DNA from: a virus
Strand: one strand, 5' to 3'
Virus record (IMG/VR): IMGVR_UViG_3300030106_002217
Coordinates: 47,762 to 77,651 of that record
DNA: 29,890 nucleotides
Shown here: positions 2,148 through 8,362 of the stretch, piece after piece
How the letters are laid out: each line of letters begins with the position of its first letter
Numbering within the stretch: the first letter of the stretch is position 1
Position numbers and translations under genes: made by a program
The notes under the pieces: model-generated
What the model was told of the DNA's origin: nothing
Database searches by the model: none
The model's input: only the letters and a program-made list of their open reading frames with translations

Positions 2148-2600
2148 TTATTTTTTCTTATATAATAGTTCGCCCATCATGTTTTGGCTATATTCTAGTG
2201 CCATTTGAAAATGAGTTCCTTCTTTTCCATCTGATGGATTACGAAAATCATTCTTTGTCAAACTCAGTGATCTATTGCTTATGAATGATTCCACTGGAAA
2301 GAACAACACGGATTCTATATCCAGTGCAGCCAGTGCTATTATATCACAATCTTTTCTAGTGTAACATCTTCTGTCTTTGCCTTTTGATATACCAAAATAA
2401 TATTTACCTTCATCACTTTGTAATACTGTTTTAACTTCTACTCTTTGTGCTACTATTAATCCTTCTCCACCAACCACGGCTATATCAACACCGTCTTGTT
2501 TTATTAAAGATGCCGCGTAACCCATCATTGACAACTTAAATACTGTTAAGCTCTCACCTGCATTACCCACTATCTTCTCGGCTCTTACACCTTTAACCAT
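2148..2600 (-). CDS. PD-(D/E)XK nuclease, Holliday-junction-resolvase-like
   Basis: 150 residues. An N-terminal helix carries a Glu (GNAGESLTVFKLSMMGY). Then come GVDIAVVG with the catalytic Asp and RVEVKTVLQ with the E-x-K. This order (E, D, E-x-K) is the PD-(D/E)XK core found in archaeal-type Hjc resolvases and related phage endonucleases. It would cut branched or recombination intermediates before packaging. AT-rich DNA follows the gene. Its start overlaps the end of the helicase gene by 16 bases, so the two are probably made together. A restriction-type or repair nuclease of the same fold is an alternative. Confidence 0.65.
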   Translation of the reverse strand: MVKGVRAEKIVGNAGESLTVFKLSMMGYAASLIKQDGVDIAVVGGEGLIVAQRVEVKTVLQSDEGKYYFGISKGKDRRCYTRKDCDIIALAALDIESVLFFPVESFISNRSLSLTKNDFRNPSDGKEGTHFQMALEYSQNMMGELLYKKK

Positions 2601-4039
2601 TCTAATATCCTTTCTCCTAGTGTTATGTTTGCTAATTTGTTTTTGTTCACTAATGTTTTTACAATGTGAACATCAACAGTATTCGGACATACCAGGTCAA
2701 CATATAACACTTTATTCTGTTGCCCTACCCTATGTGCTCTATCCTCTGATTGAACACGAGACTCCAAATTAAAATCATTTGAATAATAAATCACATTCTT
2801 CGCGGCATGAAGTGTCAAACCCATACCACCTGTTTGTGGATTACTTACAAAGAACCTCGTGGGATCAGCCGAATCTTGAAACCTCGCAATAGCATTGTCT
2901 CTATCTGCCATAGTCGTGTCGCCAAAATAGGTAACCACGGAACTCGCACCATAGATTTGTGCTAACTTGCTTTGTATTTTTAAGATGTCATGTCTGAACC
3001 TTGACCATATAATAACCTTGCCTTCCATCTCTTCTATGACTTCAAGTAATACGTCTAACCTATTGTTCTCTATCTCTTTTGTTTCGCCATCATCTGTAAT
3101 CAGATAGCCACATAACAACTGTTGTAATCTCAAAAGCCGTGTCATAACTTCTGGAGTTGTGACCATCTCTCCACTTTCGAGAAGTGCTACTGATGTTTTC
3201 TTGATACTTTGATAGTATCTCTCTTGCTCCATTGTCAGATCAACTTGCCTGGTTGTATATATCTTCGGAGGCAAATCCAATGCCTCATCTTTCGTAACTC
3301 GGAACGAGTGTGGCTCAACTTTCTTTTTCAGTTCGTCCAGGTTCTTATACCCTATGATCTGATTGAACTGATGTGATCCCATCTTCACATTTTTAATCAC
3401 GGCATATCGTCCTTGAAACGACCAATACGATTCAAACCCCAAAATTTTTTTACTCATAAATAAACATTGTGAGTATAAATCAAGAGGCGACTTGGTTATC
3501 GGAGCACCCGTCAGTATTCTTTTGTACCTTGCTCCTTCAGCAAATTTTATTAGCGCCTTGGTTCTCTTCGCCTTGATATTCTTGATTGTGGTTGACTCAT
3601 CAACGGCAAGTAAAAAGGTACTTCTGTGGGTAAACATCTCCAAAAACTGAAACACTTTCTTTGAGGCAAAAGCCTCAACATTGACGAGTAGTATTCGTAA
3701 ATGTCTTCTTGCTTCCCCACCCACGGAGCTTTTTAAGTCTGCTTGTTCTCGTTTGTTAAGCGTTGACTTCCATGTGTATACCCTCGGAACTATATCATCT
3801 GTTAGATGTGCAGGTATTTCATTGTTCTTCCAATTCGTATACACACCTTTTGGTGCTACAACAATCGCAGTATCTATTTTACTATTCGAATAAAGCCAAG
3901 CAATATTATCAATCAATACCTTTGACTTACCGCACCCCATCTCCATAAAGTATGCAAAGTTTTCTTTGTCATAACTTTTATGGAGAGCATCTTCTTGATG
4001 CTTGTAGGGTTTGGTTTTGTAAGGAAAGACCACACTCAT
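2585..4039 (-). CDS. SNF2-family DEAD/DEAH-type helicase
   Basis: 484 residues with both RecA-like lobes. Q-region YKHQEDAL is near residue 12, Walker A MGCGKSK near 34-40, motif II VDEST near 146-150 (DEST instead of DEAH), and motif III LTGAPI near 177. In lobe 2 there are VIIWSRF, GGMGLTLHAA and the arginine-finger motif QSEDRAHRVGQ typical of SNF2 translocases. It would use ATP to move along duplex DNA, probably in replication or recombination. ATGA overlap couples it to the small gene upstream, and it overlaps the nuclease gene by 16 bases. Such helicases are very common in phages next to nucleases. Confidence 0.9.
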   Translation of the reverse strand: MSVVFPYKTKPYKHQEDALHKSYDKENFAYFMEMGCGKSKVLIDNIAWLYSNSKIDTAIVVAPKGVYTNWKNNEIPAHLTDDIVPRVYTWKSTLNKREQADLKSSVGGEARRHLRILLVNVEAFASKKVFQFLEMFTHRSTFLLAVDESTTIKNIKAKRTKALIKFAEGARYKRILTGAPITKSPLDLYSQCLFMSKKILGFESYWSFQGRYAVIKNVKMGSHQFNQIIGYKNLDELKKKVEPHSFRVTKDEALDLPPKIYTTRQVDLTMEQERYYQSIKKTSVALLESGEMVTTPEVMTRLLRLQQLLCGYLITDDGETKEIENNRLDVLLEVIEEMEGKVIIWSRFRHDILKIQSKLAQIYGASSVVTYFGDTTMADRDNAIARFQDSADPTRFFVSNPQTGGMGLTLHAAKNVIYYSNDFNLESRVQSEDRAHRVGQQNKVLYVDLVCPNTVDVHIVKTLVNKNKLANITLGERILEWLKV

Positions 4040-4254
4040 GTCGTAACCTTGTGTGGTCTCATCTCTCTTACCCTTAACTCATTCTGTAGCTTACCTATGA
4101 AGTCAACCATGTGCCTTCTTTCCGTTGCTACTTCAGAAGCATAAGGATAGTAGTCCAAATTATTTTCGGCATCAAATTTTTCTAACAACAACCTGGTGCT
4201 CTTGATACATAACTTAATCTCTTTTTGAGATAGTTTCATGTGAGACTGAGCCAT
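4036..4254 (-). CDS. Small protein of unknown function
   Basis: 72 residues, charged and mostly helical (KEIKLCIKSTRLLLEKFDAEN, then MVDFIGKLQNELRVREM). No domain is recognised. It is joined to both neighbours: its start shares one base with the stop of the ParB-like gene and its end overlaps the helicase start by four (ATGA). A helper of either neighbour is possible but unsupported by motif. Confidence 0.6.
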   Translation of the reverse strand: MAQSHMKLSQKEIKLCIKSTRLLLEKFDAENNLDYYPYASEVATERRHMVDFIGKLQNELRVREMRPHKVTT

Positions 4255-4991
4255 TAGCGAGACTCACGATACGTTTTTAATCGGATCTTCCTATCGGCTC
4301 CCGTATTATGGTTATATAATTTTTCTATATTAATTATAAAATCATTACGACTACCTTGGTTTTTTAGCTTCGAGGAGAAATGTCTCAACTTATTCTCGAA
4401 GATACTCCAAACAAAATCGGGATCTCTCATCACTGATATCATTGCATTGACAAAAGACTTCTTTCTAAAATGCTCAAAATATTCTCCTACTTTAATAATT
4501 GCAGAAGCCGTATCTTTTGCATGTTCCAGATCATGCACAACAAAATTTCCTAGCTTGAAATCCTCCAGGTCTTGTTGGCTACGATAACCCTTACCATTCA
4601 ACATGGCTATTGAATCCGTTATAGAAAAACCATACGTTCTGGTAAACCATTCCATGGTCTCATACTCTTTTGCTCCGAGTTTTACATGGCTCATCATGTA
4701 CTCTTGCATAGTCCACTTTCGATTTACTGAATTTAATTTTCGTATATCGTTCAACTTGAGACCCTCTTTTATAATATACTGCACGGGTAATCCCAATACC
4801 TTATATGCTTCTAGTCTATGTTGACCATCACATACTTCCATCTTCTCATTAACAATTATAGGTATTGCTAAATCTTTCGTTTCTATTTCGTTAGATAATT
4901 CTCTAACATGCTTATTAACTACTTCTCTATTACCCACGATATAGGTAAATTGATCGTAATCTGTCGTTGAATATATTCTATTATTCGGCAT
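4254..4991 (-). CDS. ParB/sulfiredoxin-like domain protein
   Basis: 245 residues. The N-terminal half carries IIVNEKMEVCDGQHRLEAYKVLG with the GQHR motif of the ParB/Srx fold, a nucleotide-binding or nuclease fold that uses CTP in true ParB proteins. The C-terminal half is helical, basic and not recognised (a possible DNA-binding part ends in DRKIRLKTYRESR). There is no partner ParA, so chromosome-type partition is unlikely. Phage members of this fold are often predicted nucleases or gene regulators. It follows the RHH gene with only a TAAATG junction, so the two are probably co-expressed. Confidence 0.7.
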   Translation of the reverse strand: MPNNRIYSTTDYDQFTYIVGNREVVNKHVRELSNEIETKDLAIPIIVNEKMEVCDGQHRLEAYKVLGLPVQYIIKEGLKLNDIRKLNSVNRKWTMQEYMMSHVKLGAKEYETMEWFTRTYGFSITDSIAMLNGKGYRSQQDLEDFKLGNFVVHDLEHAKDTASAIIKVGEYFEHFRKKSFVNAMISVMRDPDFVWSIFENKLRHFSSKLKNQGSRNDFIINIEKLYNHNTGADRKIRLKTYRESR

Positions 4992-6312: not shown

Positions 6313-6810
6313 ATGGCACTTACTAATCGTCAGAAAACTTTTTGTAAATATATTGTTGAAGGAACGTATTCTAACTCCGAGTGTGCCAGAAAGTCTGGTT
6401 ACTCTGAAGGTCAAGCTCGTAAAACTGCGAGTTTGCTTCTTAATGGTAGAGATTTTCCTCTGGTAACTGAATATATTAAAGAACTTCGTGAAGCTAGAGA
6501 AAGAAAGTATGGTGTAACTCTCATGGGTCAACTCAAAAGGTTTGCAGATCTGTCGAAAGGTGCAGAAGAATCTGGACAGTTCTCGGCAGCCGTCAATGCA
6601 GAAAAGTATAGGTCTGCACTTGGTGGTCTTGCTATTGATAAAAGAGAGACTCATGTTACACATAATTTAGATAAACTTTCTCGTGATGAAATTGTTGCTA
6701 GACTTTCTGAACTTCGTAAAAACTACCCCTCTGCGTTCATTGACGGAGATTTCAAAGTGGTTGAAGAGAGAAAGGGGAAAGTAAAAGCTCTCTCCAACCT
6801 GGGCAAATAG
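6313..6810 (+). CDS. terS: Terminase small subunit
   Basis: 165 residues. The N-terminus NRQKTFCKYIVEGTYSNSECARKSGYSEGQARKT, read as motif halves, is the helix-turn-helix of small terminases that bind phage DNA. It is followed by a helical oligomerisation region (VTEYIKELREARERKYGV, then LMGQLKRFADLSKGA) and a tail. The length suits the family. It would recognise the packaging site and hand the DNA to the large subunit. It is a plus-strand island among minus-strand genes, about 7 kb from terL. The start is an ATG with only GGGG before it. A TTGCAA/TACTAT pair 17 bases apart ends just before the ATG, so the mRNA may be nearly leaderless. Confidence 0.8.
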   Translation: MALTNRQKTFCKYIVEGTYSNSECARKSGYSEGQARKTASLLLNGRDFPLVTEYIKELREARERKYGVTLMGQLKRFADLSKGAEESGQFSAAVNAEKYRSALGGLAIDKRETHVTHNLDKLSRDEIVARLSELRKNYPSAFIDGDFKVVEERKGKVKALSNLGK

Positions 6811-6865: not shown

Positions 6866-7051
6866 TCAATCCTCTTCTGAATTATATACAATCTTTTCAG
6901 TTCCGTCTTTTTGTATTTCTGTGAGACACACATCATAACCTTTTTCTCTCCAATTATGATAATCCATTTGTGCTAGGCTAAAAGTTTTGTAGTAGTCATC
7001 ATTACCATCAACCCAAACTATGTATCTCCAACCATTTTTATAATCGTCCAT
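6866..7051 (-). CDS. Small acidic protein of unknown function
   Basis: 61 residues from ATG at 7051, chosen because GGAG lies seven bases upstream; an in-frame TTG two codons earlier lies too close to that site. The sequence has an aromatic-rich core (NGWRYIVWVDGNDDYY, then YHNWREKGYDV) and an acidic end. Its start overlaps the end of the methyltransferase gene by 14 bases. No domain is recognised. Confidence 0.55.
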   Translation of the reverse strand: MDDYKNGWRYIVWVDGNDDYYKTFSLAQMDYHNWREKGYDVCLTEIQKDGTEKIVYNSEED

Positions 7052-8147
7052 TTTCAATCTCCTTCTTTATTGCTAATCCAATTAACTTTGCATTTTGTGG
7101 TACGATAGCGTTACCCAATGCTTTCAACCTATTGGCTCTATCTTTCTGATTGACAACTATTCTTGGGACTCCTCTAGGTTCGTCCAACCAATAGGATACC
7201 CCATCAACCACTCCGTCCAATCGCAATTCAACCTTCCGTCTCCTTCCGTTTGATACATCTTCATTCCCAAGTCCATCTGTCTTCCCTTCTCCACTCGGTT
7301 CTCCCAAAAGTCCTTGTTGCCGTTGTAACTGTGCTTCTTCAGACTTGATGTCGGTGTTGGATAATTCCACTCTTCCATTCTTGGTGGTCGAAGAGTTACT
7401 CCGTTCATCATGGCTTGAGCTTCTGCTTCTGTCAGTTCTCCGTTCTCTACTTTCCTTCTGAACATCATTGTCTGACCTTCCGAGGCATGACCGAAACCTT
7501 TTGTTGTCGGTGTCGGATACATCTCCATTGTCTTGGGGTCTACTTGCTCTCTCAAATTGCTCGGTCTCTTGCGACCCTTTCTGTGTCCCTCTTGCATCTT
7601 CTTCGTTGCCTCTGCACTTCTCGGCGGCAAAGAATCCATAGTCGTGGGGGTCGCCCAAGTTTCTACAAATAATCCATAATCTTTCTCGTTTGTGTCTAGC
7701 TCCGATTGCACTAGACGGAAGTACAAATGTCCTCGTGTGGTAGTTGAGGCTTTCCATTGCAAAGAGTACCTCGTCAAGTCCCAATGAGAGGTGTCCATAA
7801 ACATTTTCGAAAACGCAATAAGTGGGTCTGACTTGTTTAATAAGTTTATGCAAGTACGGAAAGATGTGGCGAGGGTCTTGCGTTCCACCCCTTTTGCCAC
7901 TTGTTGAGAATGGTTGACACGGATATCCTGCCGTGAGGATATCTGGTCGTTCTGAAATAAATCTTGTTGGGTCATGTGCTATCTCCTTAACATCATTATA
8001 AATTGGAATACCTGGAAAGTTTTTGGCAAGAACTTTCTGACAAAACTTGTCTGTGTCGCAAAAAGCGATTGGCTCTGATAACTCTGCCATAGAAAAACCT
8101 ACGGCAAAGCCACCAATACCACTACATAAATCTAAATGCTTGAGCAT
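7038..8147 (-). CDS. dcm: DNA (cytosine-5) methyltransferase
   Basis: 369 residues from ATG at 8147, preferred over the upstream in-frame ATG at 8177 because AAGGAG lies seven bases before it and its A overlaps the upstream stop (TGATG). Motif I is DLCSGIGGF (6-14), motif IV GYPCQPFS with catalytic Cys at 77, motif VI FENV (113-116), motif VIII ARHKRERLW, and motif X RANRLKALGNAIVPQ near the end. The target-recognition region (about 180-300) is unusually hydrophilic. It transfers methyl groups from AdoMet to cytosine C5, probably shielding phage DNA from host restriction. No restriction partner adjoins it. A second gene lies inside it in another frame. Confidence 0.92.
   Translation of the reverse strand: MLKHLDLCSGIGGFAVGFSMAELSEPIAFCDTDKFCQKVLAKNFPGIPIYNDVKEIAHDPTRFISERPDILTAGYPCQPFSTSGKRGGTQDPRHIFPYLHKLIKQVRPTYCVFENVYGHLSLGLDEVLFAMESLNYHTRTFVLPSSAIGARHKRERLWIICRNLGDPHDYGFFAAEKCRGNEEDARGTQKGSQETEQFERASRPQDNGDVSDTDNKRFRSCLGRSDNDVQKESRERRTDRSRSSSHDERSNSSTTKNGRVELSNTDIKSEEAQLQRQQGLLGEPSGEGKTDGLGNEDVSNGRRRKVELRLDGVVDGVSYWLDEPRGVPRIVVNQKDRANRLKALGNAIVPQNAKLIGLAIKKEIENGRL
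7157..7975 (-). CDS. Gene within the methyltransferase gene, alternative frame (W/Y-P-T-P-T repeat protein)
   Basis: A 272-codon frame lies wholly inside the methyltransferase gene on the same strand. Its ATG at 7975 has AAGGAG seven bases upstream, a site formed by methyltransferase codons Lys54-Glu55. The protein has three spaced motifs, WATPTT (107-112), YPTPTT (153-158) and YPTPTS (205-210), and near its end WLMGYPIGWT (256-265). I recall a widespread phage protein family with exactly these marks (WPTPTA repeats, then EWLMGFPIGWT near the end), usually called hypothetical or methyltransferase-associated. It is therefore likely translated. A function tied to methylation is plausible but unproven. 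Confidence 0.6.
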   Translation of the reverse strand: MTQQDLFQNDQISSRQDIRVNHSQQVAKGVERKTLATSFRTCINLLNKSDPLIAFSKMFMDTSHWDLTRYSLQWKASTTTRGHLYFRLVQSELDTNEKDYGLFVETWATPTTMDSLPPRSAEATKKMQEGHRKGRKRPSNLREQVDPKTMEMYPTPTTKGFGHASEGQTMMFRRKVENGELTEAEAQAMMNGVTLRPPRMEEWNYPTPTSSLKKHSYNGNKDFWENRVEKGRQMDLGMKMYQTEGDGRLNCDWTEWLMGYPIGWTNLEESQE

Positions 8148-8362
8148 CAATAATCTCCTTCTTCGTATGTATCCCATACTAAAACAAGAGTGTCGTTTTT
8201 TATTTCATCTATAAATTTTTTCTTTGCTAATTCTTTTGCTTCTTCTGTAAGCTCTGAAAATCCTTTTAAATGAACTCCACTATCTATATAAACATCAATA
8301 CCTTTAGACTTTTCAAAATATCCATCTGGGATATTAGTTTTAAATTTTATTTTCTCTTTCAT
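8147..8362 (-). CDS. Small protein of unknown function
   Basis: 71 residues, with a strand-rich first half (KIKFKTNIPDGYF, then GIDVYIDSGVHLKG) and a helix (SELTEEAKELAKKKFIDEI) before an acidic end. AGGAG lies before the ATG. The stop overlaps the methyltransferase start (TGATG), so the two are coupled. It begins 15 bases after the tRNA in the same transcript. No family is recognised. Confidence 0.6.
   Translation of the reverse strand: MKEKIKFKTNIPDGYFEKSKGIDVYIDSGVHLKGFSELTEEAKELAKKKFIDEIKNDTLVLVWDTYEEGDY

Follow-up and report, generated by a model that had tools for sequence, protein, structure and literature searches.

A frame-shifted gene nested in a phage C5-methyltransferase gene and its putative role as the specificity half of the enzyme

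The methyltransferase locus and its nested gene

The window analyzed here is a stretch of 29,890 nucleotides (positions 47,762 to 77,651 of IMG/VR record IMGVR_UViG_3300030106_002217). The record as a whole, 77.7 kb from a marine phage, contains terminase and portal genes of tailed-phage type. On the minus strand of the window lies a C5-methyltransferase (MTase) gene, designated alpha, whose likely start is the ATG at 8147 (MLKHLDLCSG), giving a protein of 369 aa. A preliminary description, made from the letters alone, had reported a 272-codon frame wholly inside this gene, an AAGGAG element 7 nt from its ATG, at the spacing also seen at the MTase start, and three W/Y-A/P-T-P-T motifs and WLMGYPIGWT within the frame. 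We found each of these features in the sequence: the nested gene, beta, is in the +1 frame, its codon 1 begins at MTase codon position 2, it lies fully within 7038-8177(-), and alpha's own ATG has AAGGAG at the same 7 nt (Table 1). Elsewhere in the window are a DNA helicase (2585-4039(-), phrog_62), a ParB-like protein (4254-4991(-), phrog_12305) and, close to the MTase but on the other strand, a terminase small subunit (6313-6810(+), phrog_51).

Table 1. Features of the alpha/beta locus, in window coordinates
Feature	Position	Strand	Evidence
Alpha, C5-MTase ORF	7038..8147; longest ORF from 8177	-	phrog_363 6.7e-61, PF00145 1.5e-36
Beta, nested +1-frame gene, 272 aa; putative specificity subunit	7157..7975	-	phrog_1008 2.4e-20, purifying selection
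Shine-Dalgarno AAGGAG of beta	7983..7988	-	7 nt before ATG
Alpha large catalytic domain, motifs I-VIII, residues 1-163	7659..8147	-	pLDDT mostly >90; M.HhaI alignment over residues 1-161 only
Alpha read-through linker over small-domain DNA, residues 164-334	7146..7658	-	pLDDT mostly 36-56; stop-free, poorly conserved
Alpha motif X, RANRLKALGNAIVPQNA	7092..7145	-	conserved columns in alpha alignment; predicted helices 337-345 and 350-367
Beta N-terminal domain, residues 1-106, overprinted on alpha motifs IV-VIII	7658..7975	-	codons 101-180 slow
Beta module 1, type M2, WATPTTMDSLPPRSAEATKKMQ..., residues 107-152	7520..7657	-	recurs in 17 loci, varied contexts
Beta module 2, type M10, YPTPTTKGFGHASEGQT..., residues 153-204	7364..7519	-	module clustering
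Beta module 3, type M11, YPTPTSSLKKHSYNGN..., residues 205-246	7238..7363	-	type M12 in its place in L072
Beta motif IX-like block, RLNCDWTEWLMGYPIGWTN, residues 248-266	7178..7234	-	invariant E255, M258, G259, P261 (beta alignment)

Alpha has the features of a C5-MTase. Residues P76 and C77 (PCQ) and E114, N115 and V116 (ENV) are invariant in the alpha alignment, and a Foldseek search with the alpha model matched M.HhaI at 6.4e-13 through the large domain only. In C5-MTases the large domain comprises motifs I-VIII and X, and the small domain comprises the target-recognition domain (TRD) and motif IX (PMC3404938). Neither a TRD nor motif IX of its own was found in the alpha chain, the M.HhaI alignment ending at motif VIII. 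Around residues 170-335, the TRD/motif IX region, most of the model has pLDDT 36-56, and the C-terminal motif X helices are folded; alpha is a large polypeptide with motifs I-VIII and X and without IX. The DNA of the first beta module starts at 7657, right where the catalytic domain of alpha stops (7659). Given the division of C5-MTases into a large domain with I-VIII and X and a small domain with TRD and IX, the nested frames split the enzyme at the domain boundary.

Beta belongs to a widespread phage family, as the preliminary description held, and the phrog_1008 profile was matched by 99/99 members. Both phrog_1008 and phrog_363 carry the label 'DNA methyltransferase'. Pfam and NCBIfam scans of beta returned no useful family, and the beta profile, searched against PDB sequences, gave chance-level matches only. 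The AlphaFold model of beta alone, from an alignment that left out three rows from annotated phage records, had pLDDT 55 and pTM 0.24, and Foldseek found no fold match for it.

Selection in the overlapping frames

When the MTase was re-coded synonymously with the phage's own codon usage, the nested frame was open in 0 of 20,000 re-codings; the longest open run was 182 codons at the 99.9th percentile and 209 codons at most. The homologue set consisted of 82 unique IMG/VR sequences out of 153 loci, in a single phase throughout. All 82 kept the nested frame uninterrupted and had AAGGAG with a 7-nt spacer before it (68 ATG and 14 GTG starts), and the loss of frame or ribosome site in close homologues, named earlier as one of the outcomes that would speak against a second gene, was absent. 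The Shine-Dalgarno element was spelled AAG-GAG in 83/83 sequences; elsewhere in that part of the gene AAG accounted for 24% of Lys codons and GAG for 24% of Glu codons.

Substitution rates by MTase codon position were obtained from 39 disjoint close pairs. At positions 1, 2 and 3 the rates were 0.033, 0.020 and 0.115 upstream of the overlap and 0.045, 0.035 and 0.153 downstream of it. MTase codons 101-180 were slow at all three positions alike. Within codons 181-340, position 3 fell to about 0.01, and position 1, which is the beta wobble position, climbed to about 0.11. Nested-synonymous transitions in these codons numbered 355 per 9,835 available sites where they changed the MTase residue versus 28 per 448 where they were MTase-silent; because MTase-changing transitions occur so freely, amino-acid constraint in the MTase frame is weak there. 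Nested-synonymous changes in the same codons created no stop in the MTase frame at 2,476 available sites.

Frame-by-frame identities gave the same division beyond this clade. In 74 independent pairs, picked on MTase-only upstream DNA and with blocks aligned via the nested protein, identity in the module region was 79% for beta, 65% for alpha and 64% for the third frame; in relatives, alpha-frame identity across this region equals that of the third frame. Over the first 105 codons of beta the same pairs gave 67% for beta, 80% for alpha and 62% for the third frame. A further 275 cross-locus module pairs showed amino-acid identities of 77% (beta), 41% (alpha) and 41% (third frame), with 0.02 stops per 100 codons in the alpha frame versus 4.75 in the third; this set is biased since its pairs were chosen on nested identity, a bias of which the 74-pair set is free.

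The substitution pattern, the retained start signals and the re-coding result bear out the earlier view that one stretch of DNA carries two coding frames. Other parts of that view need revision. Only over roughly codons 101-180 of the MTase are both frames conserved; amino-acid conservation in the TRD region is confined to the nested frame. The proposed check on synonymous sites of aligned homologues did reveal strongly reduced change at MTase position 3 in codons 181-340, but the protein constraint there belongs to the nested frame alone. Likewise, overprinting describes the N-terminal ~105 codons of beta over motifs IV-VIII and not the module region, where alpha is an unconserved, stop-free read-through. 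The idea of a new gene simply overprinted on an intact MTase was not borne out, the nested frame in the TRD region being apparently the small domain of the MTase itself. Overprinting has no single direction: the beta N-terminus was laid onto alpha over motifs IV-VIII, and alpha serves as filler across the modules.

Modules, in-frame relatives and distribution

Beta is built from an N-terminal domain, one to five modules and a final LNPxWVEWLMGYPxGWT block. The modules have a median length of 39 aa, and each starts with a W/Y/L-P-T-P-like motif ('WPTP'). Among 373 modules in 160 betas, types recur at varied positions with varied neighbors; modules of type M2, for example, have six kinds of right-hand neighbor at their 17 loci. 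Module types also reappear in unrelated phages and prophages with their order shuffled. Clustering was by single linkage, which lumped several related types in the largest cluster (178), so that there are at least as many module types as were counted.

Several actinophages carry the same parts in one frame. Leonard gp5 of a Gordonia phage, a single 519-aa ORF, matches phrog_363 at residues 1-204 and phrog_1008 at residues 300-517 (E 7.5e-60), and its in-frame module LPTPTASERGDCPSERERNTPDL lies within a 54-aa stretch that is 57% identical to the nested beta of L229. Tweety gp72 shows alpha- and beta-family matches in one ORF as well, and in the actinophage MTases a RLNAAFAEWMMxLPxGxVT block continues in frame to motif X. 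Since a single frame of Leonard gp5 encodes the catalytic domain, the modules and motifs IX and X, beta appears to be the small domain (TRD and motif IX) of the C5-MTase. The recurrent modules, from their in-frame position in Leonard, would be exchangeable TRDs arranged in tandem after motif VIII and before motif IX. Beta would also be a smaller, motif IX-bearing polypeptide read from an alternative frame within the large gene, with motif IX assigned by position and in-frame actinophage homologues, not by direct M.HhaI alignment. When the in-frame CheeseTouch protein was compared with M.HhaI by phmmer, it aligned only through motif VIII; the Pfam DNA_methylase model covers the same protein to profile position 316 of 324. 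The preliminary reading of beta was incomplete on function, in that it did not recognize beta as the probable specificity part that alpha lacks.

Other arrangements were also observed. The enzyme is split into overlapping or consecutive ORFs in Vash (gp32/33), Dylan (gp7/6) and Gmala1, and in CheeseTouch and ReT1v-2 only the modules are nested, motifs IX and X staying in alpha. Locus L488 (1303-2863) has three ORFs in series, namely a catalytic ORF, an N-terminal domain with two modules, and modules with motifs IX and X; the last of these contains the counterpart of module 1 of the window. One viral contig (L311) has a tandem pair of beta-like ORFs at 203-994 and 1038-1955. Upstream of the in-frame modules of Leonard (L325, 648-1082) and Tweety (L321, 1101-1499) we detected a nested +1 ORF with an N-terminal domain and two to three modules, and these in-frame MTases may therefore be two-protein enzymes as well. 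In L214, L225 and L210, beta and alpha segments occur within one ORF, through sequencing indels or natural fusions; these and L252, the apparent non-nested exceptions, look like indel hybrids or fragments.

Betas were collected with beta queries and no selection for MTase, the sources being phage records, contigs of viruses and genomes of bacteria, so that the count describes betas and not MTases at large. Of 324 distinct betas, 299 were nested in phase +1, in agreement with the expectation of conservation across phages. Seven were staggered and 11 were in-frame fusions, 9 of which followed the actinophage arrangement. A contig edge truncated 3, the MTase lay next to beta in 3, and 1 overlapped otherwise. 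No beta without an MTase was demonstrated in this set (3 being cut by a contig edge). Hosts and sources included Bacillota, Pseudomonadota, Bacteroidota, Chloroflexota, Acidobacteriota, actinophages and a cyanophage. The pair is also present in the laboratory E. coli phage Bas70 of the BASEL collection (L315). A Roseovarius MAG chromosome (OX638333.1) had five loci (L193-L197) with equal nested-gene match scores, probably related prophages.

Frequent misannotation had been suspected and is indeed common: most records carry the MTase frame only and some the nested frame only. In the records of PMG1 (L317), Cr-LKS3 (L319) and Porphyromonas phage018a (L004; ORF pair at 1239-2267 and 1498-2112), only the nested frame is annotated and the catalytic MTase ORF is absent. 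Annotators have flagged the second ORF, as 'g55 internal gene' in the Shelly record and as 'Mte8-like protein', without assigning a function. A P. larvae phage genomics paper mentions MTases and does not discuss the internal gene, 'Mte8' received only a passing mention in the literature searched, and among papers outside subscription access the search found none that describes these phage genes as a modular enzyme of two subunits, one nested in the other.

The proposed enzyme, its alternatives and its precedents

Three other explanations of the nested frame were weighed. If it were an untranslated by-product of the MTase protein sequence, its similarity among phages could be partly forced, as WPTPT and LNPxWVEWLMGYP of beta are the +1 readings of the MTase motifs VADTD and EPxVGRVADGVP. 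However, no synonymous re-coding left the frame open, substitutions cluster at the beta wobble position and freely alter MTase residues, beta identity is well above that of alpha and the third frame, the Shine-Dalgarno element and start were retained in 82/82 homologues, and other MTases carry the module sequences in frame; we rejected this explanation as having virtually no probability. A role of beta as an independent overprinted protein parked in the MTase gene, such as a restriction-enzyme inhibitor, was also rejected as very unlikely. Fast-shuffled modular arrays would suit an inhibitor of varied host enzymes, and the beta model is without a fold match; yet a beta lacking an MTase was not demonstrated among the 324 distinct cases, in actinophages beta is an in-frame part of the MTase that follows the catalytic domain and precedes motif X, and the part missing from alpha is exactly what beta resembles.

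A programmed ribosomal frameshift could carry translation from the catalytic domain into the beta frame and yield a single-chain enzyme, and both the in-frame chains of Leonard and Tweety and the frame-hybrid ORFs in L210, L214 and L225 are in keeping with this. But a chain made by a single +1 shift would contain motifs I-VIII, the TRD and motif IX and lack motif X, which remains in alpha; in addition, beta has its own Shine-Dalgarno element and start, under selection at synonymous sites, and its N-terminal domain, located 5' of the modules, is itself conserved. These observations make a frameshift highly improbable.

We consider it very likely, on the basis of sequence and structure comparisons, that the two interleaved genes encode a heterodimeric, probably multispecific m5C MTase in which beta is the specificity subunit. 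A single mRNA would serve for separate translation of alpha and beta, with the internal Shine-Dalgarno element used for beta. Alpha is predicted to fold as the large catalytic domain, with motifs I-VIII and the C-terminal motif X bridged by a long unstructured linker, and beta would contribute the small domain, consisting of the overprinted N-terminal domain, swappable target-recognition modules and motif IX. Their assembly would form the DNA-binding cleft, with beta selecting sites and alpha transferring the methyl group. By analogy, one module may recognize one sequence, and the several modules of a beta probably correspond to several specificities, as in the multispecific MTases of Bacillus phages. 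Multiple specificities would shield phage DNA against several host restriction enzymes.

The closest precedent is M.EcoHK31I. This enzyme needs two polypeptides, the larger with motifs I-VIII and X and the smaller with motif IX (PMC3404938, citing Lee 1995); the same paper assigns the predicted TRD to the larger polypeptide and gives one target, YGGCCR. As described, the division of motifs is like that of the window pair. By the same description, M.EcoHK31I differs in its single target and in the location of the TRD, which in the window pair would lie in the nested subunit as one to five swappable modules; window-type pairs, unlike M.EcoHK31I, are found in phages and prophages of many phyla. 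Lee et al. (1995) reportedly described the smaller M.EcoHK31I polypeptide as translated from a different frame within the larger gene. M.AquI (CYCGRG) is a sequential two-subunit C5-MTase whose small subunit consists of the distal variable region and motifs IX and X. It resembles the split forms of Vash, Dylan and Gmala1 in having the catalytic and TRD/IX parts on two polypeptides, but its motif X is in the small subunit, whereas in the window motif X is in alpha and beta is wholly nested.

Tandem target-recognition domains are known from the multispecific C5-MTases of Bacillus phages SPR, phi3T, rho11 and H2 (PMC8936443). These enzymes are phage-borne like the window pair, the likeness being one of layout; they are single chains in one frame, whereas the array in the window is a separate frame-shifted gene. 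The annotated families phrog_363 and phrog_1008 hold the window's alpha and beta, respectively, but their labels are silent on shared DNA or two halves of one enzyme. The actinophage 'DNA methylases' (Leonard gp5 and Tweety gp72) have these modules and motifs IX and X as well, and differ in that a single frame encodes the catalytic domain, some or all of the array, and motifs IX and X.

More broadly, these genes probably represent a very widespread m5C MTase class of phages and prophages, heterodimeric and with a multispecific TRD array encoded out of frame on the DNA of the catalytic subunit, in which specificity would evolve by module shuffling at the cost of a stop-free linker. Because gene callers mostly annotate one frame, annotations, structure predictions and catalogues of specificities lack half of the proposed enzyme. 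If this interpretation is true, reading out methylation specificity would require co-expression of both proteins, and the shuffled modules would constitute a large natural collection of DNA-recognition parts. Two-polypeptide C5-MTases (M.EcoHK31I) and tandem TRDs were known; what differs here is the proposed modular TRD array in a nested subunit, which would be a clear case of overlapping frames placing the two interleaved domains of a single enzyme on separate polypeptides.
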